From assembly GCF_028437565.1 (NCBI RefSeq), contig NZ_JAMRYR010000001.1, positions 496,001 through 560,000 on the forward strand: a DNA stretch of 64,000 nt. The letters run 5' to 3'. The stretch is from Actinomyces sp. B33 (GTDB lineage: Bacteria; Actinomycetota; Actinomycetes; Actinomycetales; Actinomycetaceae). The notes under the pieces are model-generated. The model was not told the DNA's origin, searched no databases, and worked only from the letters and a program-made list of their open reading frames with translations. Of the stretch, positions 9,999-53,858 are shown in pieces. Made by a program: the position numbers and the translations under genes. Position 1 is the stretch's first letter, and the number at the start of each line of letters is the position of its first letter.

Positions 9999-11018
9999 AT
10001 GTTTCGGACGATCTTCAAACGAAAAGCCACTTCGATGGAGAAATACCTATTCGTCGTGGTCCTCGCATACATCGCAGTCGTGGGCATCAAGAATCCCCTG
10101 TTCCTGAGCCTCGAAACCCTCTTCGACACCATCCGGTCCGGCTCAACGATGCTGCTGTTCGGCTTCGGGCTCCTCGTCGTCCTCGTCTCAGGAGGACTGG
10201 ACGTGTCCTTCACGGCGATCGCAGCCGCGAGCGGATACCTCGCGGTACGAGTCCTCCTCGTCGCGGGAATCGACAGCCTCCTCCTCGCCGTGCTCGTCTC
10301 AGCCGCGGCGGGCCTCGCGATGGGGATCGTCAACGCGCTCCTCATCCATGCGTTCGGCCTTCACCCGTTGATCGTCACACTCGGAACCCAATCCGTCTTC
10401 TACGGCGGAATGGCCCTCACCCTGGGGACGAAATCGTTCTCCTCGAGCCAGATGCCCGATTCCATCGCGCAATTCGGGGCCGCGAGCATCTGGGATGTCG
10501 GGAGCGGATCGGGATCGACCTACGGCTTGACGGTCTTCTTCCCGATAGCGGTCCTCATCGGCACCCTCACGTGGTTCCTCCTGTACAGGACCCGTCTGGG
10601 AAGAGAGGTCTTCGCCATCGGGAGCGACGCCGACGCAGCGAGTCGTATCGGCGTCAATGTGGCCTTCGTCAGGGGCTTCGTCTACGCGTACTCCGGGATC
10701 CTCGCCGGCATCACGGGGGTCATCTACTTCGCGAATCTTCGCTTCGTCAACCCCACGAGCATCGTCGGCTCAGAACTCTTCGTCCTTGCGGCGGTAATCA
10801 TCGGAGGAGCGACGCTCACCGGGGGCGAGGGCACGATCCTGGGCACGGTCCTGGGGATCGCCGTCGTCCAATTGTTCCAGAACACGCTCGTGTTCCTCGG
10901 CCTGTCGTCGAGCTTCAACAACTTCTTCTTCGGCATCGTGCTGCTCATCACCCTGGCCACGATGTACGCGCAGAAGCGCAAGTCGAACCGACGCGAACTG
11001 GTTTTCCGGGAGGGCTGA
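9999..11018 (+). CDS. Sugar ABC transporter permease, RbsC family (339 aa)
   Basis: Membrane permease. The family signature LVSGGLDVSFTAIAAASGY, a cytoplasmic GREVFAIGSDADAASRIGV loop and GGEGTILGTVLGIAVVQ are visible. Eight or more hydrophobic segments. GGGGAGAGG precedes the ATG. The stop is four bases before the next permease start. Most similar to the permease at 415-1425. Confidence 0.91.
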   Translation: MFRTIFKRKATSMEKYLFVVVLAYIAVVGIKNPLFLSLETLFDTIRSGSTMLLFGFGLLVVLVSGGLDVSFTAIAAASGYLAVRVLLVAGIDSLLLAVLVSAAAGLAMGIVNALLIHAFGLHPLIVTLGTQSVFYGGMALTLGTKSFSSSQMPDSIAQFGAASIWDVGSGSGSTYGLTVFFPIAVLIGTLTWFLLYRTRLGREVFAIGSDADAASRIGVNVAFVRGFVYAYSGILAGITGVIYFANLRFVNPTSIVGSELFVLAAVIIGGATLTGGEGTILGTVLGIAVVQLFQNTLVFLGLSSSFNNFFFGIVLLITLATMYAQKRKSNRRELVFREG

Positions 11019-11022
11019 CGCG

Positions 11023-12048
11023 ATGCGATTCGGATTCAACGCGAAAAAGGCCACCGAGAAACTGCTTCGCGGCGACCGCGATACCGCGATGCTCGTCACG
11101 ACCGGACTCATCCTGTATTTCGGGCTCGGTGCCCTCCTTGGGGCGCGCTTCTACTCGATCGCGAACTTCCAGTCGATGGCGATTCAGATGTCGAGTCTTG
11201 GACTGCTCTCACTGGCCATGTCTCTGGCAATGCTCTCCGGTGGGATCGACCTCTCGATCGTGTCGATCGCGGCCGTCTCCTCGATCGCGGGAGCCTACGT
11301 GATGTCCGGCGACCTCGTCTCGATCACCGCCTCCAACGATCTTCCACTGACATTGGCCGGGATCGTGACGATCCTCATCGTCGCGACCCTGTGCGGGGCG
11401 ACGAACGGCCTTCTCATCTCGCGCTTCTCGGTCCCGCCGATCCTCGCGACCCTCGGAACAATGATCTTCTTCAGCGGGATCGCCCTCGCCGCCACCAACG
11501 GGAACAGCATCGGCGTCGCCACATCGTCGCTCTCCTCTGTCTCGACGCTGACGATCGCCGCGATCCCGATCAGCTTCCTCGTGATCGTGCTGGCCTTCGG
11601 GGCGATGTGGTACCTGTTGTCACGCCGGCGCGTGGGCAGGAGGATCTACCTCATCGGGGAATCGATCACCGCCGCGCGCTTCTCCGGGATCCGCACGGAC
11701 TCGATCAAGTTCCGGGTCTACACGATCTCAGGATTCCTCTCCGGGATCGCCGCAGTGCTGATGCTCGCGTCTCAGAACTCGGCGCGTGAGGGGTTCGGCG
11801 AGTCGTACCAGCTTCAAGCGATCCTGGTGGCGGTCCTCGCCGGATTCGACCCCGACGGCGGTCGAGGGCGCGTCCCGAACGTCCTGCTCGCCGTCATCGT
11901 CTTGCAGTCCTTGCAGAGCGCGTTCTCCATTCTCGGATACTCCCCGTTCGCGAAAACCTTCGTTTGGGGAGTGCTCCTCCTAGGGGTCATGGTGCTCAAT
12001 TTCTATCTTCGACGTCGTTCACACCGCCGCTCGGCAACCTTCGGATAA
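11023..12048 (+). CDS. Sugar ABC transporter permease, second subunit (341 aa)
   Basis: Second membrane subunit of system 2. It has the signature LSGGIDLSIVSIAAVSSI, a coupling loop GRRIYLIGESITAARFSGI, and hydrophobic segments throughout. GAGGG stands upstream of the ATG. It is similar to the truncated permease at the left edge, including the FQSMAIQMSSLGLLSL region. A pair of non-identical permeases is known for LsrCD and for some pentose systems. Confidence 0.91.
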   Translation: MRFGFNAKKATEKLLRGDRDTAMLVTTGLILYFGLGALLGARFYSIANFQSMAIQMSSLGLLSLAMSLAMLSGGIDLSIVSIAAVSSIAGAYVMSGDLVSITASNDLPLTLAGIVTILIVATLCGATNGLLISRFSVPPILATLGTMIFFSGIALAATNGNSIGVATSSLSSVSTLTIAAIPISFLVIVLAFGAMWYLLSRRRVGRRIYLIGESITAARFSGIRTDSIKFRVYTISGFLSGIAAVLMLASQNSAREGFGESYQLQAILVAVLAGFDPDGGRGRVPNVLLAVIVLQSLQSAFSILGYSPFAKTFVWGVLLLGVMVLNFYLRRRSHRRSATFG

Positions 12049-12072
12049 TTTCGATACAGGAGGTCTTCTCCC

Positions 12073-12630
12073 ATGCTATTCCCCGAATACTCACGATCCG
12101 TTCTCACTGAACTGGCCGCCGTCATGTCCCGGGTCTCCTCGCGTGAGATCGTCGATCTGGCAAACGCGATCTGCTCGGCTCGCCGGATTGTCGTCATCGG
12201 AGTCGGTCGCGAGGGCCTCGCCGCTCGAGGACTCACCATGCGATTGGCCCACATAGGCCTCGACTCCCATTGGATCTGGGACGACACGACTCCCGCGCTG
12301 GGTGCGGACGACCTGCTCATCGCCGTCTCGGGCTCCGGTGAGATCGGCCATATCGACTACGTGATCGCACGGGCCCAGGAGATCGGCGCGAGCATCGCCG
12401 TGGTGACCTCGAATCCCGAGGGCCGGTCGGCCAAACGGGCGACCCATGTGCTGACTATTCCTGCCGCGGCGTTCCTCAGCACCGGGGACATGGTCGAGAG
12501 CATCCAACCCATGGGATCGCTATTCGAGCAGTCGGTATGGATCGCCTTCGACTGCCTGATCCTGGACCTCGAACAGCGGAAAGATCTCGATCACGAGGAT
12601 CTCGTCGGCAGGCATAGGAATCTCGAATGA
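12073..12630 (+). CDS. SIS-domain sugar isomerase, 6-phospho-3-hexuloisomerase-like (185 aa)
   Basis: Probable cytoplasmic aldose-ketose isomerase of the HxlB/PHI type. It is one SIS domain: IVVIGVGREGLAARGLTMRL near residue 38 (phosphosugar loop), ALGADDLLIAVSGSGEIGH near residue 82 (the Ser-rich SGSGxT-type motif) and IAVVTSNPEGRSAKRATHVL. Length matches HxlB (about 180-200 aa). It has the strongest ribosome binding site of the operon (AGGAGG) and starts 25 nt after the permease, so it is co-transcribed with the importer. No 3-hexulose-6-phosphate synthase partner is present in the window. It may act on an imported ketose phosphate and not in formaldehyde fixation. Confidence 0.82.
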   Translation: MLFPEYSRSVLTELAAVMSRVSSREIVDLANAICSARRIVVIGVGREGLAARGLTMRLAHIGLDSHWIWDDTTPALGADDLLIAVSGSGEIGHIDYVIARAQEIGASIAVVTSNPEGRSAKRATHVLTIPAAAFLSTGDMVESIQPMGSLFEQSVWIAFDCLILDLEQRKDLDHEDLVGRHRNLE

Positions 12631-12887: not shown

Positions 12888-13745
12888 TCAGGCCCGGCCG
12901 AGCCTGCGCGCGAGCGCCCCGTGCCGGGGGGCGAAGGCCCACGCCAACGCGAACCCGACCGTCAGCACGAGGACGATCGTCGCCCCCGTCGGCACGTCCA
13001 CCGACCACGACAGGTAGAGCCCGAGGACCCCCGCCAACGCTCCCAGCGTCGGCGCCAGCCACATCATCGTCCCCAGGCGATCCGTCAGCAGGCGCGCCGT
13101 CGCCGCCGGCGTCACGAGGAGCGCGAGGACGAGGATGTTGCCGATCGTCTGCACCGAGATGACGACCGCCAGGGACACCGCCACGTACAGGAGCACGTCG
13201 AGGGCCAGGACGTTCAGGCCCGCGGCCCGGGCCGTCTCGCGATCGAGGGACACGGCGACGATCGGCCTGTGGAAGACCGCGAGGAGCCCGACGACGAGGG
13301 CCCCTCCCGCGAGCGCCACCGGCACGTCCGAGGCCGGCACCCCCGTGATCGACCCGAAGAGGAAGTCCTGGAGGCTCCCCGCGTACCCGGGAGTCCTCGC
13401 GATGACGACGACGCCGAGGGCGAACGCCCCGACGAAGAGGACGCCGATCACCGAATCCTCCTTGAGCCTGCGGTTCTGCGACAGCAGGGCGACGAGGACG
13501 GCCGTCGCGACGCCCGCGACGGCGCCGCCCAGGACCAGCGATCCCGAGACGAGGAAGGCGACCGCCAGGCCGGGGAACACCGAGTGGGCGACCGCGTCCC
13601 CGATGAACGCCATTCCCCGCAGGACGACGTGGACGCCGACGACGCCGCAGACGACGGCGCACAGGACCGCCATGAGCAGGGCCCGCGGTAGGAAGGCGAG
13701 GACCGGGTTGAACAGGTCGTTGATGAAATCGATCGGCGTGAGCAT
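12888..13745 (-). CDS. Anchored-repeat-type metal ABC transporter permease (285 aa)
   Basis: Membrane subunit of a Zn/Mn-type (ABC-3 family, ZnuB/MntB-like) transporter. Family features seen: ALLMAVLCAVVCGVVGVHVVLRG at the N-terminus, FIGDAVAHSVFPGLAVAFLV (the GxAxxHxxxPG signature), and ALLVTPAATARLL plus YLSWSVDVPTGATIVLV towards the C-terminus. Start ATG at 13745 overlaps the ATPase stop (ATGA), so it is translationally coupled. The 347-aa frame extending further upstream is out of register with that overlap and lies inside the ATPase gene. Last gene of the cluster that begins at 22016. Confidence 0.92.
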   Translation of the reverse strand: MLTPIDFINDLFNPVLAFLPRALLMAVLCAVVCGVVGVHVVLRGMAFIGDAVAHSVFPGLAVAFLVSGSLVLGGAVAGVATAVLVALLSQNRRLKEDSVIGVLFVGAFALGVVVIARTPGYAGSLQDFLFGSITGVPASDVPVALAGGALVVGLLAVFHRPIVAVSLDRETARAAGLNVLALDVLLYVAVSLAVVISVQTIGNILVLALLVTPAATARLLTDRLGTMMWLAPTLGALAGVLGLYLSWSVDVPTGATIVLVLTVGFALAWAFAPRHGALARRLGRA

Positions 13746-14530
13746 CACGAGACTCCAAGCGCCGCGAGCAGCGGGTTGTCGGGACGGACCGCGAAAGTGC
13801 GGATCCACGTGTCGGCGTCGGACAGCTCGGCGGGCGTCCCCGAGGCGACGACCGTCCGGTTGACGAGGTAGAGGCGGTCGCACTGGGCGCGCGCGCCGAT
13901 GAGGTCGTGGGTCGTCATGAGGACCGCGCACCCCTCCCCCGCCAGGTCGCGGAACAGGTCCATGAGGAGCTCCTGGGTCGGCATGTCGAGGCCGGTGAAG
14001 GGCTCGTCGAGGAGGAGCACCGACGGCTCGAGGGCGAGGGCCCGGGCGACGAGGACCCGTTGGCGCTGGCCGCCCGACAGCTCGCCGACGGGCCGGTCGC
14101 CCAGGTCCGACATGCCGGTGCGCGCCAGGGCCCGTTCGACGGCGCGGTGGTGCGCGATCCGGGGTCGGGCGAGCAGCCCGAGGCGCACGGTGATCGCCCC
14201 GAGGACGGCGTCGCGCACGCTCATGGGGAAGTCCCAGGCGAACTCGTGGCGCTGGGGGACGTACCCGATGGACGTGCCGACGCCCGCCCGACCGGGGCGC
14301 CGGGCGCGCGGACCGCCCGCATCGGGGGAGTCCGGGGCCCCGGCGTGCTCGACGGCGCCCGCGACGGCGGGGATCAGGCCGAGGACGGCCCGCAGGAGGG
14401 TGGTCTTGCCCGCCCCGTTGGGGCCGATGAGCCCGACGAGCTCCCCGGCGTCGATCTCCAGGTCGACGTCGCGCAGGACGGCCCGACCCCCCAGGTCGAC
14501 GCCGAGTCCGCGGACGCTCAGCGCCCTCAC
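13745..14530 (-). CDS. Anchored-repeat-type metal ABC transporter ATP-binding protein (261 aa)
   Basis: ATPase of the ZnuC/MntA class. It has Walker A GPNGAGKTT (residues 36-44), signature LSGGQRQRVLVARAL, Walker B SVLLLDEPFTGLD and the switch His in MTTHDL. An Ala/Gly/Asp-rich insert of about 20 residues follows Walker A (near EHAGAPDSPDAGG). I place the start at GTG 14530, which overlaps the preceding stop (GTGA). The much longer open frame upstream is the shadow of the neighbouring repeat gene. Confidence 0.92.
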   Translation of the reverse strand: MRALSVRGLGVDLGGRAVLRDVDLEIDAGELVGLIGPNGAGKTTLLRAVLGLIPAVAGAVEHAGAPDSPDAGGPRARRPGRAGVGTSIGYVPQRHEFAWDFPMSVRDAVLGAITVRLGLLARPRIAHHRAVERALARTGMSDLGDRPVGELSGGQRQRVLVARALALEPSVLLLDEPFTGLDMPTQELLMDLFRDLAGEGCAVLMTTHDLIGARAQCDRLYLVNRTVVASGTPAELSDADTWIRTFAVRPDNPLLAALGVS

Positions 14531-15594
14531 TCGCCGTCCCCCGCCGCTTCCGCGCCCGGATCGGCGGATCCGGCGGCGCGGGCCTCGGCGATCGCGGCGG
14601 CGCGATCGCGGACGCTGGCCCGGCGGCGGACCCACACGAGGAGCCCCCCGACGATCCCGGCGACGACGACGGCCCCGGCGATCCATATCGTCGCCCGCGA
14701 CGAGGCCGGCTCCCGCCCGGCGTCGACGGGCTGCGCCTCGTCCTCGCGCTCGTCGGCGCCGTCCCGGGCGTCGGAGCCCTGAGCCCGGGGCTCGTCGTCC
14801 GTCCCGGCCGACTGGGCGGACGCCGCGTCGCCCGGCTCGGGGGCCGCGGCCGCGAGCGCCTCGTCGACGGAGGTCTGCGAGCCGACGGCGAAGCGCAGGA
14901 CGGTCGACGCCGAGACCTTCGACCCGTCGAGGGCGTCGGCGGAGAAGGTCAGGGCCGCGGTGTAGACGCCCGGCTCGGTGAACACCCAGTTCGCGTGGAC
15001 GTGCGTGTTGACGTCGACCCACACGTCCTGCGCCTCGTCCTTCTGCCCGTCGACGAGGAGAAGGGGCTCTCCGAAGGTCCCGTTCTGCAGGAACATCCAC
15101 GACCGCCCCGGGCCGCGGACGGGGCCGATGCTCATCGTCGCGCCCCGGTCGACGAGGCCGACGACGCCGGGGTCCTGGGTGCTCCACCCGAGCCAGACGA
15201 CATCGGCGAGCTGGGTCTGGGGGATGACGTACCACTGCTCGCCGGCGGTGGCGCCCATGAACGAGTACTCGGGCCCGGTGGGGGCGTCGAGGAGGCCGGC
15301 GTCGGAGACGACGAGGACGGTCTGGTCGGGGTCGCGCCACACCGGCTCGGTCCCGGAGTCGTCGCGCATGGCGACGGTCCACTGCCCGTCGACGAGGCGC
15401 GGGCCGAGGTCGACGTGCCCGCGGACGATCGACACCGGCCCCTCGCCGGAGGCCTCGTCGGCTCCGACGCTCTGATCGAGGGCGGGGTCGTCCGCGCCGT
15501 CGCCGGGGGCCGCGTGGACGCCCGGTCCTCCCAGGAGCGCGGCGCACGCGAGGGCGGCGCCGAGGGCGAGGGCGCGAAATCGGTGGGTTCTCAC
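14527..15594 (-). CDS. Membrane-anchored repeat protein of the metal ABC transporter (355 aa)
   Basis: Actinobacterial surface-anchored (choice-of-anchor M / TIGR03769-type) protein. A signal peptide occupies residues 1-28 (ALGAALACAALLGGPGVHA). One extracytoplasmic repeat unit follows, with RGHVDLGPR near residue 57, a WLGWST stretch, and HVHANWVFTEPGVY near residue 197. An Asp/Glu-rich spacer then leads to a C-terminal membrane helix (IWIAGAVVVAGIVGGLLVWV) with a charged cytoplasmic tail. There is no sortase motif, so it stays in the membrane. It sits between receptor and ATPase genes and overlaps the ATPase start, which ties it to transport. The exact role is not known for the family. The HxH pair is a candidate metal site (inference). 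Confidence 0.85.
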   Translation of the reverse strand: MRTHRFRALALGAALACAALLGGPGVHAAPGDGADDPALDQSVGADEASGEGPVSIVRGHVDLGPRLVDGQWTVAMRDDSGTEPVWRDPDQTVLVVSDAGLLDAPTGPEYSFMGATAGEQWYVIPQTQLADVVWLGWSTQDPGVVGLVDRGATMSIGPVRGPGRSWMFLQNGTFGEPLLLVDGQKDEAQDVWVDVNTHVHANWVFTEPGVYTAALTFSADALDGSKVSASTVLRFAVGSQTSVDEALAAAAPEPGDAASAQSAGTDDEPRAQGSDARDGADEREDEAQPVDAGREPASSRATIWIAGAVVVAGIVGGLLVWVRRRASVRDRAAAIAEARAAGSADPGAEAAGDGE

Positions 15595-15598
15595 AGGG

Positions 15599-17269
15599 TC
15601 ATTCCTCTTCGGGGTCGTGCCCGCCGAGGCAGCGGGCGAGGGACTGGGCGTTGAATCGCATCATGTCGACGTAGGTGGGGGCGGTGGCGTCGAGCGTATC
15701 CCCGTACAGGGGGCACACCCGGACGCCGGCCTCCTGGGCCGTCGTGCGCAGGGTCGAGCGGGTCCGGGCGAGGTTCGGTTCGAGGAACACCGCGGGGATG
15801 TCGAGGTCGTCGAGGGTGGCGGCCAGGCGGATCCGGTCGGCGACGCTCGGCTCGACGCCGGGGTTGGGGGCGACAAAGCCGGCGACGTCGAGGCCGTAGG
15901 CGTTGGCGAGGTACCCGTAGGCGTCGTTGGTCGTCACGAGGCGGCGCCGCTCGGGGGGGATCGTCGCGATCGTCGCGGCGACCTCGGCGTCGACCTCGTC
16001 GAGGAGCGCGGCGTAGGCGGCGGCGTTGCGCCGGTAGTCGTCGGCCCCGTCGGGGTCGGCGGCGATGAGGGCGTCGCGGATGACGCGCACGTAGGCGGCC
16101 GCGTTGTGGGCGTCGTGCCACAGGTGGGGGTCGATCTCTCCGTGGACGTGCTTGCCGAGGACGGCCTGGGGCAGGACGTAGGCGTCGGATCCGGGCGCTC
16201 CGAGGAAGCGGAATCCGGGGGCCCCGGGGATCTGCGTGAGGGTGCGGGTCGGCACGTCGATGACGACGTCGTCGAGGTCGACGACCTCCATGCCGGGAGC
16301 GAGGGGCGCGTCCCGCTTCGACGAGCGCTCCTCGTCGTCCGGGCCGCCTCCCGGCGCCGGTGCGAGGGCGCCCTCGTCCACGGCGAGGGCGACGCCCCCG
16401 CGCTCGAGGTCGACGGTGATATCCGCGTGGCCCGCCGACAGGATCCTGCGCCCCTCGGCGGCGGCCACCTCGTCGGGGGCGACGCCGACGGCGAAGACCG
16501 CGGTGGCGCCGTCGAGGACGACGGGCCGATCGCCCTCGCGGGCGCGCAGCCGCGCCTCGAAGGGGATCCGGTAGACGCCGGGGGCGGTGAAGGCCCAGCT
16601 CATGTGCTGGTGGGCGTCGGCCGGCAGGACGGAGGTGTCGTCCGCGTACCCGGAGGCGGGATCGAATCCGTCGGAGGAGGCGAAGCCGATGTCGGGGGCC
16701 CCGAAGGAGGTCGTCAGGTAGGAGGCGGCGTCGCCGGGCCCGTCGACGCCGGTGGCGATGAGGTCGATGGTCGAGGCCCGGTCGGCCCCGTACTGGGAGC
16801 CGGTGCCCAGGACCCTCATGCCGAGCCACACGGTGTCGAGGGAGCGGTCCTCGATGAGGGGGAGGATCGTCGCCCCCTCCTTGGCGGCCTCCTCGGCGAC
16901 CGAGACGGAGGTCGCGGTGGGGGGCAGGTTGGCGTCGAGGGCCCGGATGATGGCGTGCTCCTCGAGGAGGAGGTAGTTCGAGAAGGCGACGTCGGCGTAG
17001 GCGACGTCGCGGATGGTCCGCAGGCTCGGCTCCCACGAGTGGGGGTCGGCGCCGTCGGGAACCATCTGGGTGACGGTCGCCCGGTCTCCGGCGACGTTGC
17101 GCACGAGGTCGGCGAGGATGCCCGTCGTCGTCGCGACGCGCAGCTCGCCGTCGTCGGCCGGGTCGGAGGACAGGGCGGGGGCGGAGCAGGAGGACGCGGC
17201 CAGGACGGCGGTCAGCGCGAGAACTGCGCCGACCGCCGCCCGGGCGATCCGATGGGGGTTGGAGGTCAC
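15599..17269 (-). CDS. Anchored-repeat ABC transporter substrate-binding lipoprotein with inserted repeat (556 aa)
   Basis: ZnuA-like receptor (cluster A-I) interrupted by a surface-repeat domain (TIGR03772-type). Lipobox ASSC near residue 28. The N-lobe has ATTTGILADLVRNVAGD and the first metal His in DGADPHSW (about 75). Residues about 140-320 form the insert, with VWLGMRVLG, DAHQHMSWAFTAPGVY (His pair about 221) and SAGHADITVDL. The ZnuA fold resumes with HGEIDPHLWHDAHNAAAYVR (second His, about 380), VTTNDAYGYLANAYGL and a C-terminal VFLEPN. It is nearly twice the normal ZnuA length because of the insert. It lacks the His-rich loop common in ZnuA. Zn or Mn is the likely ligand. Confidence 0.9.
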   Translation of the reverse strand: MTSNPHRIARAAVGAVLALTAVLAASSCSAPALSSDPADDGELRVATTTGILADLVRNVAGDRATVTQMVPDGADPHSWEPSLRTIRDVAYADVAFSNYLLLEEHAIIRALDANLPPTATSVSVAEEAAKEGATILPLIEDRSLDTVWLGMRVLGTGSQYGADRASTIDLIATGVDGPGDAASYLTTSFGAPDIGFASSDGFDPASGYADDTSVLPADAHQHMSWAFTAPGVYRIPFEARLRAREGDRPVVLDGATAVFAVGVAPDEVAAAEGRRILSAGHADITVDLERGGVALAVDEGALAPAPGGGPDDEERSSKRDAPLAPGMEVVDLDDVVIDVPTRTLTQIPGAPGFRFLGAPGSDAYVLPQAVLGKHVHGEIDPHLWHDAHNAAAYVRVIRDALIAADPDGADDYRRNAAAYAALLDEVDAEVAATIATIPPERRRLVTTNDAYGYLANAYGLDVAGFVAPNPGVEPSVADRIRLAATLDDLDIPAVFLEPNLARTRSTLRTTAQEAGVRVCPLYGDTLDATAPTYVDMMRFNAQSLARCLGGHDPEEE

Positions 17270-17276
17270 CCCGGCA

Positions 17277-20200
17277 TCACCACCGCATCGCCGACGGGCG
17301 CCGGCGCGACGCCGCGAGGACCGCGAGGCCGCCGAGGGCGACGAGGCCGGATAGGACGAGCACCGAGGAGGCGTCGGAGCCGGTGCGGGCCAGGTCGGCC
17401 GCGGTGAGCTCGCAGGGCTGGCCGCTGGGGGTGCGCCCGACGACCTCCTTGACGATGGGCAGGCCGTTGGGGCCCTTCTCGCCGGTGGGCGTCAGCTTCC
17501 CCGCGGCCCCGGTGCCCGCGACCGACCCTTTGAGGGAGCCGGACTTGGGCGTGACCTTCATGGAGATCGTCAGGCGGTAGTCGCCGGGCTCGGTGAACAA
17601 CCAGTTCTGGTGGGCGTGGGTATTCGCCGGGAGGGTGTAGGACGACCCCGCGCCGTCGAAGATGTGGGATCCCACTCCTGAGCCGAGGCTGCCGGCGTTG
17701 AAGACCGCGACCTTGCCGGGGCCCTGGACGTCGACGAGGGTGAATACGACCTCGCCGGAGGTCTGGTTGACGATCTCCTCGCGCTGGGAGTTCATCCCCA
17801 GCCAGGGGACGCCGGCGATCTGCGTCGACGGGATCATCCAGATGTCCGATCCGGGGGAGGCGACGAAAGAGACGTCGGCGGGGGCCTTCATCTTGGCCGC
17901 ATCGCCCAGGGCGAAGGTCAGCGACCCGGGGTCGACCCACGAGGCCGGCTGGCTGCGATCGTCCTTGATGCGGGCGACGACCGTCCCGTCCTCGATGGCG
18001 GGTCCGAGGTCGAAGTGGCCCTCGGTGACGTTGCCCGCGCCTCCGACCGAGAAGTTCAGGGTCGCAGTGGCGGTGTTGGCCTCGCCCGCCGCGGAGCCCA
18101 AGGACAGGTTCTTCGCCTCGTCCTCGGTGGCCTCGCGAGTGATGGTCGTCGGGAGGCACTGCTCCTTGGCGATGCCCGCGCGCGCGTTCGACCCGCCGGT
18201 CGTCCCCGTCGATCCGCCGGCGCCGTCGGCTCCGCCTGTTCCACTGCCCCCGTCGGACCGGGGGTCTGTGGGCTGGGGGCCGTTGCCGCTGGCGTCCGGG
18301 ACGGCGGTTGCTGCGGTGACGGCGAACGCGGCGGAAAGGCCGTCGCGGCCCCGGATCGTCACCTCGTGCGTGCCGGGCTCGAAGTCGGCGGGAACGGTCC
18401 ACGTGGCGCGAGCCGTTCCCGCGGCGTCCGACGTGACGGCGGGGAGCTCAACGGTCTGGGAGTGGACCTCGAAGACGACCGGGGAATCGGGCTCCACGCC
18501 GGTGGCGGTGAAGACGATCGTCCCGCCCTGGGCCACCTCGGTCCGGTCGACGGCGATCGTCGGGGCGTTGGCGCATGCGCTCTGATCGCCCACGTCGATC
18601 GTGTACGTGCGGGCCGGGGCCTGGGCGACGGTCCCGTCGGCCTTGGCGGCGCTGGCCTTGACCGTCAGCACGTAGCGGCCGGCCGTGGAGAACACCCAGT
18701 TGACGTGCTTGTGGGCCGGGTAGTCCTGGGTGATCGTCGCCCCCTCGGGCGCGAGCTCGAAGCCGCCGTCCTTGAGGACCGACTCCGCTCCGCGGAACGG
18801 GTCGACGGTGAACGCGTGGATCGATCCCCCGTAGGGGCCGACGTAGGAGACGTCGAAGGCGGCGCTCTCGTATCCGCCGGCGCGGATCGCGAGCGTGTCC
18901 CATCCGGGCCACAGGACGGTCGCCTGGTCGTTGCCGCTCTGATCGAGGACGTACCCGGATGCCGGGAGGGTCTCGATGCTCGCGCGGATCGTCTCGGGGA
19001 TGTCCTGCCGCGTCGACTGCTTGACCTTGAGGAGGACCTTCTCCGGCTCGCGCATCGTCCCCAGGGCCGTGACGTCCTCCTTGATCTTGAGGGTCAGCGC
19101 GCCGGCCTCGTCGGACGCGAGATCGAAGATGTCGGCGTGGCCGTGATCGAGCGCGATATCGGCCCCCTTGGGCAGCGACGCCATCGCCTCGCAGGTGGTG
19201 AACTCCCCTGTCGGGGCGGGCCGGGGCTGCGGCTTCGCGTCGGGCGTGGCGTCCGGCTCCGGCTTGGTATCGGGCTGGTGCGTGGCGTCCGGCTCCGGCT
19301 TCGCGTCGGGTTGGGGCTTCGGCGACTCGTCCGGCGCGGGATCCGGGGAGGGGGCGGAACCGCATGCCGCGGCCACGGCCTCGTCGCCGACGGCGTAGTA
19401 CACGTCGAAGAACGCGTACATGCGCTCGGGCCATCCGGAGTCCTTGGCGTACTCGGCCTTCCACAGGTTGCTCATCCGGTAGATGCCGGGCTTGTTGACC
19501 GAGGTCGCCAGGTGACGGTGGGAGGCCTCCCTGAAGATGATCTTCTCCGACTCGTTGAGTCGCGATCCGAGGCCCGCGGCCGAGCCCGTGCCGGGGCGCA
19601 GCGTCATCCGCGCATTGGCCCCGAGCATCGGGTCGTAGTCCCACAGGACCATCGTGCCGGGGCCCTCGTACTCCTCGGTGTAGAAGCCGACGCCGTCGGC
19701 GGTGACCTTCGAGTAGTCGATGCCCTCGGTGTTGAACCCGAGCCAGACGAGGCCCTCCTTCTGGACCTCGGGCAGGGTCCAGATCGTCGCCCCGGCGCTC
19801 CCGAGGACGCTGAGGGCGGCCTTGGGGCCGATCGGGGCGAGCACGGACGAGGCCGAATCCGGCACCGGCACGACGACCGTGTGGGATTCGCGCTTCTTCG
19901 CCGGGGAGACGGTGTCGTCCTTGAGGAACGAGGTCATCTGGCCCTTGTCGTCGGTGACGACCGACAGGTCGTGGTGCCCGGGGGCCAGGCACTCGTAGGT
20001 GCCCTTGGCGGGCAGGGCGACGGTGTCGATGTCGGCGTCTTCCTCGGACGGCGCCCCCGGGGTCGTCGGGCCCGCGGGGGTTCCGCCGGCGAACGCCTCG
20101 GCGGGCGTCGTGATCTTCGCCCCGGCGGTCGTGCAGTCGGGCAGGTCGACGTCCTTGTCCTCGCCGACGAGCCACAGGGTGTCGTAGTCCTTCGAGGTGA

Positions 20201-22016
20201 TCGTCTCGCCGGACTTGCTCTTGGCGGTCGCGCGCCAGGTCACGGTGTATCGACCGGGCTCGGTGAAGGACCAGTTGAGGTGCCCGTGGCCGCCCGGGAC
20301 GATCCGCGAGACCCGCTTATCGGGATTCGCGGAGTTGAAGTCCTCCTGGACGAAGTCGGCGCCCGAGCGCCACACGGACATGACGCCGGGGCCCGTGACG
20401 GAGACCAGTTCGAGCTTGACGGTGTCGGGGTCGATCGTCGAGGGGACCTGTCCGGCGCCGTAGCCGGCCCAGATCGGCCGGTGGCCGTCGTAGTACTGGC
20501 CGGGTCCGTTCCACAGGATGTCGCCGGGCTTGCCGAGGAAGGACAGGGAGTTGTCGGCCGGCAGCTTGATGCGGGAGACCTCGCGGCCCGAGGCATCGGC
20601 GTCGGGGCCCAGTCGCATCGCGACCTCGGAGGCGGGGCGCACGTTCTCGGCCGGACCGTCGACGACATCGACGGTGAAGTTGCCGAGCTCGTCGTTCCAG
20701 GAGATGTGGGCGGCGTCGACGTGCTTGCGGTAGAGCATGTCGCGACCGGTCTTCGGGTCCTTCTGGTTGCCGCCGGCGGGCTTGTCGGCCAGGCACGCCG
20801 AGGCGACGCCGGGGGTCGCGGAGGGCGCGGCCGGGTTCTCAGCCGGGTCGCCCGCGTCGGGGTCCTCCGCCGGCGCGGGCTGGGGCGTCGGCGCGGGCTG
20901 GGAGCCGTCCGGGTTGAGCACGGTGAAGGAGACGGAGACGCTGCGCGTGCCGGAGCGGGCGATGAGCGTGTGACGGCCGGGGGTCATGTCCTCGGGGATC
21001 GCGTATTCGAGGACGGCGTCCTCGTCCGTGACGGTCGCCGAGCCGATATTCGTGCCGTCGATGAGGAACTCGACCTGGGCGCCTTCGGAGAATCCGGAGG
21101 CCCAGGGGTCGAGGCTCTCGCCGGGCTTAAGGGATGAGGGGATGTCGACGGAGGGCGCGCCGTCTGAAGCAGAGTCGCCGTTCGAGGCCGGGTCGTCGGC
21201 GCCGTCGGGGATCGCGTCATCGGATCCGGGGGCGACGGGCCCGCTCGGGCCGGGAGCCTCGGGCGATTCGGACGGATCGTCCGCCTGGCCGGCGATGGCG
21301 GCGTCGCCGACCTTGAAGGTGATGCTCAGCGGCTCCGTGCGCTGGGAGTACATCGACCCCGCGCCGGAGGCGTTCGCCGTGGCCGTCAGGGTGTAGGTGC
21401 CGGGCTTGGTGAAGATCCAGGTCGCCGATCCCCTGGCGGTCTCGGTGACGACGATCTTGTCGTTGTTCTTGGCCCCGGAGTCCCCCTCCGCGGAGCCTCG
21501 TTCCATGTCGAACCTGCCGCTGTCGAGGATCGCGACGGGGGAGGAGGACGTCGTCGAGTGGACGAGGATCTTGCCCCCCTCCGGGCCCGTGTAGTTGAAG
21601 CGGTAGGTCATCTTGGTGTAGCCGGCGGCGCTCAGGGCCGTCGTGTCCCACCACAGGCCCAGGCCCGAGGGGGACGAGGCGGTCGGTCCGACGACATAGC
21701 CGGAGCCCCCGCCCAGGGCCGGGTCGAGCTTCGCGACGAGGGCGGAGTCCCGCACGCCGATGGCGGTCTTCGCCGTGTCGATGGGGGCGTCGCCGCTGCG
21801 GGCGTCGAGTGCGAGGCCGCCGAGGTCGTTGGGGGCGGTCAAACGCCACAGGGTGACGTCTCCGGAGGTGATGGGCTGAGCGGTGTCCGCCGCGTGAGCG
21901 GGCGAGCCTGCGGAGGGAACGATGACGCCGAGCACCGCGAGCGCGATGACGCTCAGTACGGCGACGAGTCGTGCCCCTGCCGACACCCGGTGCGACGTGT
22001 GGAGACGGGAGGACAT
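17277..22016 (-). CDS. Giant LAxTG cell-wall-anchored repeat protein of the metal ABC cluster (1,579 aa)
   Basis: Surface protein of the TIGR03773/TIGR03769 type and first gene of the cluster. Start ATG at 22016 follows AGAAGGGTC; the ATG seven codons upstream has no ribosome binding site. Signal peptide to about residue 42 (SPAHA). Five repeat units have W-F-T-x-P-G-x-Y cores near residues 199, 574, 829, 1100 and 1465. Four carry an HxH pair (HGHLNW, HRHLAT, HKHVNW, HAHQNW) and several carry a GHxD-type strand (PGHHDL, HGHADI, EGHFDL). Two Ig-like modules lie between repeats (about 300-380 and 1150-1240), plus a Pro/Asp/Lys-rich tandem linker (about 905-935). The end is LARTG, a membrane helix and RRR, a class E sortase-type sorting signal. 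It probably binds metal or a host ligand at the wall; ligand unproven. Confidence 0.88.
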   Translation of the reverse strand: MSSRLHTSHRVSAGARLVAVLSVIALAVLGVIVPSAGSPAHAADTAQPITSGDVTLWRLTAPNDLGGLALDARSGDAPIDTAKTAIGVRDSALVAKLDPALGGGSGYVVGPTASSPSGLGLWWDTTALSAAGYTKMTYRFNYTGPEGGKILVHSTTSSSPVAILDSGRFDMERGSAEGDSGAKNNDKIVVTETARGSATWIFTKPGTYTLTATANASGAGSMYSQRTEPLSITFKVGDAAIAGQADDPSESPEAPGPSGPVAPGSDDAIPDGADDPASNGDSASDGAPSVDIPSSLKPGESLDPWASGFSEGAQVEFLIDGTNIGSATVTDEDAVLEYAIPEDMTPGRHTLIARSGTRSVSVSFTVLNPDGSQPAPTPQPAPAEDPDAGDPAENPAAPSATPGVASACLADKPAGGNQKDPKTGRDMLYRKHVDAAHISWNDELGNFTVDVVDGPAENVRPASEVAMRLGPDADASGREVSRIKLPADNSLSFLGKPGDILWNGPGQYYDGHRPIWAGYGAGQVPSTIDPDTVKLELVSVTGPGVMSVWRSGADFVQEDFNSANPDKRVSRIVPGGHGHLNWSFTEPGRYTVTWRATAKSKSGETITSKDYDTLWLVGEDKDVDLPDCTTAGAKITTPAEAFAGGTPAGPTTPGAPSEEDADIDTVALPAKGTYECLAPGHHDLSVVTDDKGQMTSFLKDDTVSPAKKRESHTVVVPVPDSASSVLAPIGPKAALSVLGSAGATIWTLPEVQKEGLVWLGFNTEGIDYSKVTADGVGFYTEEYEGPGTMVLWDYDPMLGANARMTLRPGTGSAAGLGSRLNESEKIIFREASHRHLATSVNKPGIYRMSNLWKAEYAKDSGWPERMYAFFDVYYAVGDEAVAAACGSAPSPDPAPDESPKPQPDAKPEPDATHQPDTKPEPDATPDAKPQPRPAPTGEFTTCEAMASLPKGADIALDHGHADIFDLASDEAGALTLKIKEDVTALGTMREPEKVLLKVKQSTRQDIPETIRASIETLPASGYVLDQSGNDQATVLWPGWDTLAIRAGGYESAAFDVSYVGPYGGSIHAFTVDPFRGAESVLKDGGFELAPEGATITQDYPAHKHVNWVFSTAGRYVLTVKASAAKADGTVAQAPARTYTIDVGDQSACANAPTIAVDRTEVAQGGTIVFTATGVEPDSPVVFEVHSQTVELPAVTSDAAGTARATWTVPADFEPGTHEVTIRGRDGLSAAFAVTAATAVPDASGNGPQPTDPRSDGGSGTGGADGAGGSTGTTGGSNARAGIAKEQCLPTTITREATEDEAKNLSLGSAAGEANTATATLNFSVGGAGNVTEGHFDLGPAIEDGTVVARIKDDRSQPASWVDPGSLTFALGDAAKMKAPADVSFVASPGSDIWMIPSTQIAGVPWLGMNSQREEIVNQTSGEVVFTLVDVQGPGKVAVFNAGSLGSGVGSHIFDGAGSSYTLPANTHAHQNWLFTEPGDYRLTISMKVTPKSGSLKGSVAGTGAAGKLTPTGEKGPNGLPIVKEVVGRTPSGQPCELTAADLARTGSDASSVLVLSGLVALGGLAVLAASRRRPSAMRW
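19244..19301 (-). repeat. Tandem DNA repeat coding for a Pro/Asp/Lys linker
   Basis: A 22-base unit (19244-19265) recurs unchanged at 19280-19301, 36 bases apart, so the frame is kept. The peptide alternates KPEPDAT and related PDAKPQP blocks. This is a wall-spanning linker that can change length by slippage. Confidence 0.75.
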
Positions 22017-22038
22017 GATGACCCTTCTAGCTATCAAT

Positions 22039-22053
22039 TGGGAATCATTCTCA
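22039..22053 (-). promoter_or_regulatory. Fur/Zur-like operator upstream of the anchored-repeat metal cluster
   Basis: Minus strand TGAGAATGATTCCCA, a 15-base dyad with one mismatched pair around a central G. It closely matches the actinobacterial Zur/Fur pattern TGaaAATgATTttCA. It lies about 22 bases upstream of the start of the giant surface protein gene. It implies repression by metal-loaded Zur (or Fur) of the 9-kb cluster. Which metal regulator binds is inferred from the ZnuABC-like genes. Confidence 0.7.
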
Positions 22054-22362: not shown

Positions 22363-23061
22363 TCAGTCCAGAACCGCCCGCTCCACACGGTCGACCGCAT
22401 TGACGCCCTCGAGATCCGCGAGGGCCCGGACGAGCGCATCCTGCGGATGGGGCCCCTCGAATCTCATGACGACCCGCATCCCCTCGCCGTCCTCGGTGCG
22501 GATCGACTCCGTCGAGTTCACCGTCGCCGTGTACCCGTGGTGCGTGGCCGTCAGGAGGATCGACCGCATCACCCCGCGCCCGGCCTCGTACTCGACGACG
22601 ACCCGGTCGTCGCGGTGGCTCGACGGCAGCTTGGCGACGAGCGGGCCGATGAGGAAGACGAGGAGGAAGTGCAGGACGAGCGCGGCCGCCGCCAAGAGCG
22701 CCAGGCCGGCGCCGCACGCCACCCCGATCGCCGCCGACACCCACACGGTCGCCGCCGTCGTCAACCCCTTGACCGTGTCGTTGTTGACGAAGATGACGCC
22801 CGCGCCCAGGAATCCGATGCCCGAGACGATCTGGGCGGCCAGGCGCGACGGGTCCGGCACGGCGCCTCCCCCGGCATCGGCGAACCCGTGCATCGACACG
22901 AGGGTGAACAAGCACGACCCCATGCCGACGAGGACGTGCGTCTTCACCCCCGCATCCTTCAGGTGGTAGTGGCGCTCCAGGCCGAGGGGGAAGCACAGGG
23001 CGAGCGTCATCCCCAGGGCCGCCAGGCCCGGGAGGAAGTGGGCGACGGTGAAGGGGTACAT
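22363..23061 (-). CDS. MgtC/SapB-family membrane protein (232 aa)
   Basis: MgtC-type integral membrane protein, linked in other bacteria to growth in low magnesium and to survival in host cells. Start ATG at 23061 has GGAGAACGC upstream; the longer frame to 23442 has no such site. The N-terminal membrane domain shows the family pattern GLERHYHLKDAGVKTHVLVGMGSCLFTLVS, IVSGIGFLGAGVIFVN and VKGLTTAATVWVSAAIGVACG. The cytoplasmic C-terminal domain (about residues 150-232) is ACT-like. Length is normal. I see no magnesium riboswitch upstream. It stands alone between two unrelated regions. Confidence 0.88.
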   Translation of the reverse strand: MYPFTVAHFLPGLAALGMTLALCFPLGLERHYHLKDAGVKTHVLVGMGSCLFTLVSMHGFADAGGGAVPDPSRLAAQIVSGIGFLGAGVIFVNNDTVKGLTTAATVWVSAAIGVACGAGLALLAAAALVLHFLLVFLIGPLVAKLPSSHRDDRVVVEYEAGRGVMRSILLTATHHGYTATVNSTESIRTEDGEGMRVVMRFEGPHPQDALVRALADLEGVNAVDRVERAVLD

Positions 23062-23393
23062 GCGTTCTCCTGTCTCTCGATCCTGCCCGGAGCCTCCCCG
23101 AGGTCTCCGCGGCCGTGGCCCGGGTGGACAGGCCAGTCGAGGAGCTGAGCTTCCGGAAAAGCTTCGTTCATCATGCCAGTACGCCGTTTGGCCGACTCCC
23201 GGGTTATCGGCGGATTGAGTCTGACGAGGGCTGCGACGACCTCGTCGAGGATCCGATCGGACCATCTTCGCGACGTCGAAGATCCCATCAACATCACACC
23301 AGCTTCCCGCATTGGCGAGTTCAGTGGGATGCCCCGTGGGAAGCTGTCTCCGCGCCCCGTCCCAGTCTCGGTCGCGAACCTCGGAGCGAAGCC
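23062..23393. other. Intergenic, no gene seen
   Basis: 332 bases upstream of the MgtC gene and downstream of the Fic remnant. No supported gene, no clear terminator and no M-box-like structure that I can recognise by eye. Confidence 0.4.
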
Positions 23394-48990: not shown

Positions 48991-49764
48991 TCAGAGGGTG
49001 AACTCGAAGCGGCTTCTGTTGCCGCGGTGATACGCAGTGAAATACTCGATCGGATTTCCGGCTGGATCGAAGTTAACCGACATCAGAACCATCACCACGG
49101 GAAAACCTCCCAGTTCCAGTAATCGTTGTTGCTCCTCTGTAGCGGGTGCTACCTCTATCGATCGACGGGCGCCTAGGACCATTACGCCGTTCTCATTCAG
49201 GACCTTGTGCATCGATTCCGTTCGCATGTCGCGGCCGGCGAAATACTCCCCGAACTCCTTCGGAAGATACGAGTGAATCCAAGACCACGGCTCTCCGTCT
49301 ACTCGGCGGACGCGTTCGAGATAGAAAACGATGTCGCCCGGTGCACAATTCAATTGGAAAGCAACATTGGAATCAGCTTTGACATACTTTTGTGAGAGGA
49401 CATCGGAAGTGATCACCGCTTCAGAACCGGTAGCATCTGCATAAAGCCCACGCAGAGTGTACGGACTCTTTTCGGCCGACTCCCTTTCAGCGACGAACGA
49501 GCCTTTTCCGTGGACCCTATAGATGATCCCCATACTCTCGAGCTCTTCGAGAGCCTGTCGAACAACTGCCCGGGAAACATCGTACATCGAGCAAAGCCCG
49601 CTTTCGCTTGGCAGAGCATCGCCCGGTGTCAGGCACAGTCTGCCGATCTCCTTGATCAGGCTGTTGCGCAATTGCTCGTGCTTGGTGTCTCCGGGCACGT
49701 CATGCAAAGAAAACTCTTTGCCTGAGGCGACCCATTCTTTCGTGGCTCGACGTGAGTTGGTCAT
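48991..49764 (-). CDS. GntR-family regulator, HutC/UTRA subfamily (257 aa)
   Basis: Ligand-responsive repressor. The N-terminal winged helix reads EQLRNSLIKEIGRLCLTPGDALPSES and VVRQALEELESMGIIYRVHGKGSFV. The C-terminal UTRA domain (from about residue 90) binds a small effector, often a phosphosugar or phosphonate. Start ATG 49764 with AAAAGGATC upstream; a frame to 49809 lacks a ribosome binding site. Divergent from the ABC importer, with 194 bases between starts, so it probably represses that operon. AT-richer than the genome average, like its neighbours. Confidence 0.9.
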   Translation of the reverse strand: MTNSRRATKEWVASGKEFSLHDVPGDTKHEQLRNSLIKEIGRLCLTPGDALPSESGLCSMYDVSRAVVRQALEELESMGIIYRVHGKGSFVAERESAEKSPYTLRGLYADATGSEAVITSDVLSQKYVKADSNVAFQLNCAPGDIVFYLERVRRVDGEPWSWIHSYLPKEFGEYFAGRDMRTESMHKVLNENGVMVLGARRSIEVAPATEEQQRLLELGGFPVVMVLMSVNFDPAGNPIEYFTAYHRGNRSRFEFTL

Positions 49765-49958
49765 CGATGATCCTTTTGACGTGCCCTGAAGGCATGACCA
49801 CTGTATCAACTTACACAGGGAAAGATATCAAAATGAGATCAAATTGTTATAATAAGTTTGCATGAAAGTATCTTGTTGAACTCAAACTTGTCATATCATG
49901 TTAGGTGCGGATGTCATCCGTGCCGCTGCGCGCTTGATCTTGTCGAGGAGGACTGGAA
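49765..49958. promoter_or_regulatory. Divergent promoter region of gntR and the ABC importer
   Basis: Very AT-rich for this genome. TATAAT at 49848-49853 is a clear -10-like hexamer. TTGAAC at 49876 with TGTTAG 17 bases downstream is a second candidate for the importer. GAGGACTGG before 49959 is the ribosome binding site. The GntR operator is not identifiable by eye. Confidence 0.5.
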
Positions 49959-51035
49959 ATGCGTTCAAAAGCCATTTTTGCAACTGTTGGATTCGTTGCG
50001 GTTGCGCTATTAGCCGCAGGATGCGGTCAGTCTGGCAGTGTCGGGAACAGTGCGGAATCGTTCCCGAATTCCGGTGAATCGCCTGCTCCTGGCGGCAAAG
50101 TTACCGCGTACTGCTCGATGTCTGAGGTGGACTGCCAGCAGATCGTCGAAGATTTCACCACCGACACGGGTATCACAGTCGATTACGTCCGCATGTCCGT
50201 GGGCGAAAACTATGCTCGGATTCAAGCGGAGGCGGATAATCCGCAGGCGTCGCTGTGGATCGGAGGGTCCGCTGAGACCTATGTCGAGGCTGCGGTGAAT
50301 AACTTGCTCGAGCCTTATGAGCCGAACGGTCTAGATAAGATTGATGAAATCTACCGTGATCCGGATAATTTCTGGATACCAACATCCAGCGCGCCGGTGG
50401 CATTCGCCTCCAATACTGCCCTTATTGAGGAATTGGGAATCGATCCACCGGACAGCTGGGAGGATTTGGCAGACCCGAAGCTCGCGAACTCGGTGGTTCT
50501 CGCTCATCCCGCATCATCTGGGACCGGCGCAGCCGTCATGTCCACTCTGGTTCAGCTGTACGGCGAGGAGAAGGGATTCGATGTGATGAAGAGAATCGAT
50601 GCCAATGTTGCTCAATACACCAGATCCGGCGGTGCCCCGACCCGTATGGTCGGGCTTGGCGAGGCCGCTGTCTCCGCAAGCTACGTCATGGATGTCGAGC
50701 TCGGGATGGCTGAGGGATTCGACATCACCCCGTCGTTCCCCCAAGAGGGAACGGGGTTCGGCATCAATGCCGCCGCGCTCATCAAGGGTGGGCGGGAGAA
50801 TGAAGCGGCGGGTGCAAGAGCATTTCTTGACTGGGTTCTGACCGAGAATGGTCAGAAATCAATGATGAAAACGTTCTGGCGTCCCATAGTCCCTGGCATC
50901 ATGAACTCAACTTCGCGGGTTGATACCTCTGGCATCAAGCTCATCGATTACAACACCTTTTGGGCTGGCGAAAACAGGACACGCCTCATCGAACTGTTCG
51001 AAGACCGGATTCGCCACGGCTCGGATGCTCAATAA
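49959..51035 (+). CDS. ABC transporter substrate-binding lipoprotein, ferric/sugar-phosphate/phosphonate type (358 aa)
   Basis: Receptor of the SBP_bac_6/13 family (FbpA, AfuA, PhnS relatives). Lipobox LAAGC (Cys22). The mature part starts KVTAYCSMSEVDCQQIVEDFTTDTGITVDY, then ASLWIGGSAETYVEAA, PTSSAPVAFASNTALI, and AHPASSGTGAAVMSTL. The Tyr-Tyr iron-binding pair of FbpA is not seen, while ASSGTGA resembles the phosphate-holding loop of AfuA/PhnS. So a phosphorylated organic ligand is more likely than ferric iron (inference). First gene of a four-gene operon. Confidence 0.87.
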   Translation: MRSKAIFATVGFVAVALLAAGCGQSGSVGNSAESFPNSGESPAPGGKVTAYCSMSEVDCQQIVEDFTTDTGITVDYVRMSVGENYARIQAEADNPQASLWIGGSAETYVEAAVNNLLEPYEPNGLDKIDEIYRDPDNFWIPTSSAPVAFASNTALIEELGIDPPDSWEDLADPKLANSVVLAHPASSGTGAAVMSTLVQLYGEEKGFDVMKRIDANVAQYTRSGGAPTRMVGLGEAAVSASYVMDVELGMAEGFDITPSFPQEGTGFGINAAALIKGGRENEAAGARAFLDWVLTENGQKSMMKTFWRPIVPGIMNSTSRVDTSGIKLIDYNTFWAGENRTRLIELFEDRIRHGSDAQ

Positions 51036-51037
51036 AA

Positions 51038-52756: not shown

Positions 52757-52760
52757 GAAC

Positions 52761-53858
52761 ATGGCGACGGTTGTATTTGAGAATGTTTCAAAGGTCTTTC
52801 CCTCCTCTAAAAAAGGGGAGGGTGTCATGGCAGTTCGCGATCTGAATTTGATTGTCGAAGAAGGAGAACTGCTGACTTTGCTCGGTCCTTCCGGATGCGG
52901 GAAGACGACCATTCTGAGAATGCTTGCTGGTTTTGAACCTGTTACCGATGGGAAAATATTTCTGGATGGAGTTGATATTACTTCTAAACCCGTGAATACA
53001 AGAGGAATAGGTATGGTTTTCCAATCGTATGCCTTGTTTCCTCACATGTCCGTATATGACAATGTTGCATACGGTTTAATGATTGAGAAACTGTCTAAGA
53101 AAGAAATAGAAAAACGGGTCTCAGATGTCATGGATCTCATGGCTATTTCACAGTTTGCCGATCGTGCGCCGAATCAACTGTCTGGCGGTCAACAACAGCG
53201 TGTCGCTCTAGCGCGGGCTGTCGTCACTGAACCTAGTGTCCTTCTGCTTGATGAGCCTCTTTCTAATCTTGATGCTCAACTTCGTGAGCAGATGCGAGAT
53301 GAGCTTCGGAGAATTCAGCAAAGGCTGGGAATCACTAGTCTTTATGTCACGCATGATCAAAGCGAAGCGTTGGCAATATCTGACGAAGTTATCCTTCTTA
53401 GGGATGGGATCATTCAACAAAGGGGAAGCGCTGAATATATTTATCAGTATCCCGACAGTGAATTTGTTGCTCAATTCCTGGGGAAAGCAAGTATTCTCTC
53501 TGGCAAACTCATAGGACAATATTCGAATGGTGGAGAAGTGCTGATCGATGGAATGGTGGGCAAAATCTTCCAGCCGATCGATGAGTCAAGGATGGGTATG
53601 CCTGTTAAGTGCGTCGTGAGGCCTGAGAATGTTGCATTCAATGCGTCCCCTGAAGGAAAGTATGTTATTGAGCAAGCGGTGTTCCAAGGGCTGTATGTGG
53701 AATATCGGATGACTATAGGGGGTGAGCGCTTTGCCATTGTCGATCATGATTACCTGAAAAATGGAGCATTGAGCGCTGGGGATCGGATCGATATCGAGCT
53801 GGAACGGACTCCTTTGTGGATCCTTCCGGAAGCAAAGGACAAGGTCAATGCCTTTTGA
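52761..53858 (+). CDS. ABC transporter ATP-binding protein, PotA/FbpC type (365 aa)
   Basis: Walker A GPSGCGKTT (residues 42-50), Q-loop VFQSYALFPH, signature LSGGQQQRVALARAV, Walker B VLLLDEPLSNLD and switch YVTHDQSEAL. A C-terminal TOBE domain (about 280-365) completes it. Four bases after the permease stop. Its stop overlaps the start of the phosphatase gene by 11 bases. Confidence 0.94.
   Translation: MATVVFENVSKVFPSSKKGEGVMAVRDLNLIVEEGELLTLLGPSGCGKTTILRMLAGFEPVTDGKIFLDGVDITSKPVNTRGIGMVFQSYALFPHMSVYDNVAYGLMIEKLSKKEIEKRVSDVMDLMAISQFADRAPNQLSGGQQQRVALARAVVTEPSVLLLDEPLSNLDAQLREQMRDELRRIQQRLGITSLYVTHDQSEALAISDEVILLRDGIIQQRGSAEYIYQYPDSEFVAQFLGKASILSGKLIGQYSNGGEVLIDGMVGKIFQPIDESRMGMPVKCVVRPENVAFNASPEGKYVIEQAVFQGLYVEYRMTIGGERFAIVDHDYLKNGALSAGDRIDIELERTPLWILPEAKDKVNAF

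Follow-up and report, generated by a model that had tools for sequence, protein, structure and literature searches.

Jointly kept HxD and HxH motifs and a permuted receptor copy point to a zinc module in a metal-import operon of Actinomyces sp. B33

The repeat shared by the wall protein, the metal receptor and the membrane-anchored protein of one operon in Actinomyces sp. B33 is very probably the zinc module of a zinc importer. We analysed a 64,000-nucleotide stretch of this genome (assembly GCF_028437565.1, contig NZ_JAMRYR010000001.1, positions 496,001 to 560,000; hereafter the window), and the evidence lies in the joint conservation of two histidine motifs of the repeat (HxD and HxH), their permuted order in the receptor, a Zur-type operator and the order of the genes. 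Little is understood of how zinc passes across the thick Gram-positive wall to an importer. Actinobacteria commonly have the system, and through the jointly kept motifs and the permuted receptor module what was a vague 'surface repeat' becomes a donor-acceptor pair that can be tested. The operon and its parts, in window coordinates, are as follows:

12888-22037, minus strand: operon of wall protein, receptor, membrane-anchored protein, ATPase and permease
22039-22053, minus strand: Zur-type operator TGAGAATGATTCCCA, at most one mismatch to TGANAATNATTNTCA
17277-22016, minus strand: giant wall protein, 1579 residues, five modules, with TIGR03773, NF038134 and TIGR03769 matches
15599-17269, minus strand: receptor, 556 residues, a cluster A-I metal-binding protein with an inserted module
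14527-15594, minus strand: ZnuE-type protein, 355 residues, with a signal sequence, one module and a membrane segment at the C-terminus (features of both termini judged by eye)
13745-14530, minus strand: ATPase subunit (start approximate), TIGR03771 at 313.3 bits against a cut-off of 268.8
12888-13742, minus strand: permease subunit (start approximate), TIGR03770 at 426.3 bits against a cut-off of 296.8

A sequence-only reading of this DNA had placed the operon in the TIGR03769-TIGR03773 family, with receptor, ATPase and permease genes side by side, and curated-model matches above cut-off bear this out. All six models (TIGR03769-TIGR03773 and NF038134, choice-of-anchor M) are matched above cut-off by proteins of the operon, and their names give no ligand. 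The giant protein reaches 408.1 bits for TIGR03773 (cut-off 190.3), matches NF038134 in five stretches and TIGR03769 in four, and ends in a LARTG sorting signal (read by eye); the receptor reaches 676.1 bits for TIGR03772 (cut-off 350.45). The ZnuE-type protein falls below the whole-protein cut-off of TIGR03773 (164.9 versus 190.3 bits) and is assigned to NF038134 (184.6 versus 55) and TIGR03769 (52.5 versus 30.9), both above cut-off.

The same reading had described an HxH motif in six of seven repeat units of the three proteins (minus strand, 14527-22016), and every motif that it quoted was found. The first HxH residue is 577 (HGHLNW), 833 (HRHLAT), 1102 (HKHVNW) and 1467 (HAHQNW) in the giant protein, 198 in the small protein (HVHANW) and 220 in the receptor (HQHMSW); the seventh unit, N-terminal in the giant protein, has neither HxD nor HxH. 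Two details needed correction. A GHxD-type strand was said often to precede the core, but all six HxH units have an HxD, in five of them 133-152 residues before the HxH and in the receptor 61 residues after it; and the W/F-T-x-P-G-x-Y core said to follow the HxH is not intact in the HRHLAT unit (SVNKPGIY). The five HxH of the giant protein (one of which, HGH at 958, overlaps an HxD) compare with 0.44 expected (P 0.0002, 5000 shuffles). Taken alone, the other two proteins are weak cases: the receptor has two HxH, one in its ZnuA part (P 0.026), and the small protein has one (P 0.056), with three of its five histidines in 355 residues belonging to the motif. The modules are:

21306-21878, minus strand: module 1, degenerate, no HxD or HxH, core kept (WIFTKPGTY)
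20163-20735, minus strand: module 2, HVD at 20715-20723, HGH at 20280-20288
19386-19991, minus strand: module 3, W lost, HHD at 19968-19976, HRH at 19512-19520
18588-19154, minus strand: module 4, HAD at 19131-19139, HKH at 18705-18713
17532-18095, minus strand: module 5, HFD at 18009-18017, HAH at 17610-17618
16172-16831, minus strand: permuted module of the receptor, HQH at 16604-16612 first, HAD at 16421-16429 second
14881-15432, minus strand: module of the ZnuE-type protein, HVD at 15409-15417, HVH at 14995-15003, model at a predicted local distance difference test score (pLDDT) of 94.6

Relatives of the receptor insert were found in 398 stretches in one scan of species genomes; all were actinobacterial by name among the 80 matches listed (names read by eye), and the nearest named match among these was Schaalia vaccimaxillae at 67% identity. 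Related loci were picked through this insert, not through neighbouring genes. Where there was room for it, a module in another frame follows the receptor directly in 77 of 77 loci, and one precedes it directly in 56 of 69. Modules were then sought in open frames from 104 sources, which comprised the window, 100 loci and three other stretches of the same genome. The model, made from six window modules and refined on 416 full-length hits, gave 712 hits, among them 450 co-linear, full-length domains, 438 of which are distinct sequences. In the co-linear set the HxD histidine is kept in 405/442 domains, its aspartate in 432/444, the core tryptophan in 437/450, and the two HxH histidines in 405/450 and 407/450. 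All four motif residues are present in 392 of the 438 distinct domains, 28 keep only the aspartate, 15 keep none, two have only the second HxH histidine, and one lacks only the aspartate. The HxD histidine and the first HxH histidine are thus present or absent together in 438 of 438 domains, and the second HxH histidine agrees with them in 436. Across 162 clusters, the three histidine-histidine pairs are the top three of 210 column pairs (phi 1.00, 0.94 and 0.94; median pair 0.11). W82 and G84 track the motif histidines at phi up to 0.71 and 0.66, and form the best pair that excludes the motif histidines and the aspartate (phi 0.47).

The sequence-only reading would have been undermined by histidines that vary across the family while W and FTxPGxY stay fixed. 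This is not the pattern of most domains, but it is that of a minority. Both motifs occur in 78 of 78 receptor-adjacent modules (full-length modules in loci L059-L138, one start-cut copy in L070 excluded). The 372 other co-linear domains come mostly from wall proteins but include those of the small proteins in the window and in L039-L058; both motifs are present in 326, one has lost only the aspartate, and 45 keep the core with neither motif intact. Mean-field coupling (effective number 277, or 245 without degenerate domains) pairs residues 8, 12 and 13 of the HxD strand with 81, 85, 86 and 88, and pairs 86-87 with 143-144; therefore one strand (81-88, carrying the conserved W82 and G84) is placed between the HxD and HxH strands, a pattern that would fit a single site spanning three strands. 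Wall repeats that are degenerate and lack the histidine motifs were seen in L093, L099, L116, L078, L119 and L123; several of them end in G-x-Y-C, and they make up a different, perhaps disulfide-bearing module class.

The two parts of the module are swapped in the receptor, with the late one ahead of the early one, an arrangement seen in 93 reading frames. A doubled model gained more than 10 bits in 82 of these 93 receptor-type frames (median gain 40), versus none of 59 canonical controls. The window receptor gained just 4.5 bits (from 65.9 to 70.4), and an additional low-complexity stretch in it is the probable reason. AlphaFold2 models of the ZnuE-type module (37 sequences, pLDDT 94.6) and of the receptor (51 sequences, pLDDT 87.2, predicted template-modelling score 0.69) have the same run of strands and helices, shifted (printed lists compared by eye); the HxH strand at 159-161 of the module matches receptor strand 180-182, and the HxD strand at 20-29 matches 240-247. 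The copy in the receptor is a circular permutation of the module, and its insertion point lies immediately ahead of the second metal ligand of the cleft. Among 514 distinct HxH anchors, HxD stands before in 403 and after in 103, with 8 unresolved; these counts rest partly on a loose pattern, and a stricter HxD pattern matched 9% of shuffled stretches before HxH and 4% after.

Other cut points seem to occur in C-terminal wall modules. The first strand has moved behind the module in a paralogue of the same genome (contig C4) and in L056, L070, L084 and L117; the last strand has moved in front in the window, L059, L064, L067 and L068 (and, by eye only, L065); and in Actinomyces bovis (L061) the cut lies further into the module. 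These wall cases combine small gains of 2.0 to 10.8 bits (43.9 in L061) with the motif. In these, the linker between the former end and the former start is similar and usually ends in GHFD, and a cysteine flanks each side (by eye). Module 5 of the window is probably permuted by one strand: its last strand (TATLNFSVG) lies ahead of the GHFD strand, the doubled model gains 10.8 bits with a start 17 positions before the junction, and cysteines flank it on either side (CLPT..., ...QPCEL; by eye). The HxD/HxH pair survives the differing cut points.

The body of the receptor has the fold of a cluster A-I metal receptor (ZnuA, AztC, MntC, PsaA). The first and second cleft histidines are present in the window receptor, and its third cleft position is Asn448; in the 51 aligned receptors this position is His in 44, Asn in six and Ser in one. 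The window receptor therefore fails the three-cleft-histidine criterion of ZnuA Groups I and II (PMC7731109) and is assigned to TIGR03772 only. The inserted HxD and HxH are invariant in 51 of 51 aligned receptors, including the seven without the third cleft histidine, the window among them. An extra receptor HxH (KHVHGE, window 16142-16150) lies just before the second cleft histidine and is likewise invariant in 51 of 51; it is possible that it bridges insert and cleft.

A Zur-like box had been noted upstream of the operon, and we located it at 22039-22053, 22 nucleotides before the ATG at 22016. Sites were counted at no more than one mismatch to the pattern (two in a looser count), with the reversed pattern as control. 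The whole genome (2.28 Mb) holds four sites at one mismatch or fewer and 15 at two or fewer; the reversed control gave one. One other site precedes an L28 gene, whose match exceeds the cut-off, and a divergent GTPase gene (a weak, MRF/ZigA-like match), which we take to be COG0523-like. COG0523 genes are linked to Zur. A further site lies between an AztB-type permease gene (over cut-off) and an AztA-like ATPase gene (209.8 versus a cut-off of 220), and another precedes an AztC-like receptor gene (188 versus 350). In 79 related loci, some of them close relatives, 57 Zur-type sites were found versus none for the reversed pattern, spread over 38 of these loci; 36 of the sites lie within 500 base pairs of a module-bearing or receptor frame. 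Contig C4 of the same genome encodes a second wall protein (243267-247025) with four HxH modules (HKHPTW, HQHAHW, HVHASW and HVHPNW), and a two-mismatch Zur-type site lies about 120 base pairs before its start; the last of the four modules looks permuted.

The claim that the repeat has no assigned ligand no longer stands, since zinc has already been proposed and assayed for it in ZnuE, ZnuF and ZnuG of Corynebacterium diphtheriae (PMC12445094, J Bacteriol, August 2025). The HxD/HxH motif was described there in ZnuE, ZnuF, ZnuG, CmrA and CmrA2, and in reversed order in ZnuA; in public predicted structures the motif residues of ZnuE and ZnuG lie close together; ZnuE and its histidines are required on low zinc; and zinc gives melting shifts of the repeat proteins (PMC12445094). 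Zinc and Zur control the cluster (PMC6711530). We found no description of the permutation in the literature, by a weak check in which one search listed 12 of 448 papers and PMC12445094 contained 'permut' 0 times and 'reverse' twice. New relative to print are the joint keeping or loss of the two motifs and a module cut open and re-joined in various ways, including in the receptor. In Gardnerella vaginalis, anchored-repeat genes are induced in genital-tract medium (four values, 86- to 121-fold), in a report that lacks the word zinc (PMC11979175).

Several results weigh against zinc binding by the motifs and zinc import by the system. On a tree of 134 representatives each motif changed six times, with two independent pairs of changes on strongly supported branches, so the 438 domains are far from independent; the 45 domains with neither motif intact count on the same side. 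At one mismatch or fewer, 41 of the 79 related loci have no Zur-type site. The single Fur-family gene found in the genome has Fur and PerR as its best named models and lies below cut-off for all; the assignment to Zur therefore depends on the operators. By sequence, the receptor body is best matched by the manganese receptor 5hx7, and structural comparison ties zinc-type AztC with manganese-type MntC; the metal assignment was never based on the receptor fold. In C. diphtheriae, ZnuE with its histidines changed to alanine still shifts with zinc (the ZnuG mutant is unclear), so the authors leave the role of the motif in binding open, and deletion of znuF or znuG does not reduce growth while deletion of znuA has a modest effect (PMC12445094).

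The strongest competing explanation, a serious one that we do not favour, is that the wall modules store or trap surface zinc and let it go slowly without acting as donors, uptake being left to the ZnuE-type protein and the receptor alone. Loss of both ZnuF and ZnuG restores growth of a C. diphtheriae transporter mutant, and their overexpression limits growth (PMC12445094); the invariance of both motifs next to the receptor, set beside their loss mostly in wall modules, points the same way. Against this, modules lie directly upstream of the receptor in most loci with room, and the position of the wall gene, first in the operon behind the operator, together with these upstream modules suggests joint work with the importer. 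We consider it improbable that the metal bound by the histidine triad is structural and serves to stabilise the sandwich, the true ligand being a host protein, glycan or metallophore. Import of manganese would agree with the 5hx7 match, the MntC tie and a third cleft ligand (Asn) that differs from those of both AztC (His) and PsaA (Glu), but is highly improbable given an operator type common to L28 and zinc-transporter-like genes, a third cleft histidine kept in most receptors and a C. diphtheriae relative under zinc and Zur regulation (PMC6711530).

We therefore return to the zinc module. It would be a beta-sandwich of about 185 residues holding a metal ion, most likely Zn2+, through three histidines and perhaps one aspartate from the two distant motifs. 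Each module would hold one metal and could hand it to another, and all would serve one import system under the Zur-type operator. Several modules on the wall-anchored protein may collect or buffer zinc at the surface, one on the membrane-tethered ZnuE-type protein would sit next to the transporter, and the permuted copy forms part of the receptor, directly ahead of the second cleft ligand. In the mechanism that we prefer, the modules would load zinc onto the receptor, the ZnuE-type protein would be indispensable for this, and zinc would then enter through the permease. The phenotypes published for C. diphtheriae speak for a ZnuE-type partner that is essential and for wall proteins that act as a buffer. 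The ordered relay from wall through membrane to receptor, as first proposed, is unproven, and the C. diphtheriae wall-protein phenotypes fit sequestration at least as well; we hold it to be quite possible but lean slightly against it. More tentatively, the permuted module of the receptor might act as the site of docking and loading, itself a homologue of its donor, such that zinc passes from the ZnuE-type protein to the insert, and perhaps from the wall to the ZnuE-type protein. A carrier domain would then have been spliced in where other zinc receptors carry a loop that takes zinc from an unrelated chaperone, and in the window clade the insert may replace a weakened cleft.

Other features of the window were noted by eye. 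An MgtC/SapB-like protein is encoded directly upstream of the operon (22363-23148, minus strand). At 9999-12630 on the plus strand, two ribose-type permease-like genes of the ATP-binding cassette (ABC) class are followed by a sugar-isomerase-like (SIS) gene. A stretch at 48994-54702, with genes of 0.46-0.56 guanine-plus-cytosine content versus flanks of about 0.7, holds a regulator-like gene, an iron- or polyamine-type-like ABC transporter and a phosphatase-like gene, and was probably acquired.

Among the closest known systems, C. diphtheriae Znu shares with the window the genes and their order (receptor, membrane module protein, ATPase, permease) and the HxD/HxH pair (PMC12445094, PMC6711530). 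There the two motifs lie about 150 residues apart and are reversed in the receptor, and the window agrees on both counts (133-152 residues; reversed, 61). Zur control in C. diphtheriae has its counterpart in the Zur-type box of the window, a likeness seen in sequence only. The window differs in its five-module wall protein upstream in the same operon and in the Asn that replaces the third cleft histidine, and the reversed receptor order is explained here as circular permutation. In Paracoccus, a zinc receptor (AztC) is paired with a metallochaperone (AztD); in the window, the donor would be a homologue of the inserted module. The streptococcal Pht proteins with AdcAII likewise have zinc-binding repeats in several copies at the surface, which have been proposed to supply a ZnuA-type receptor (PMC12445094), but the Pht motif, HxxHxH, lies in one stretch, and none of the window HxH motifs has that form.

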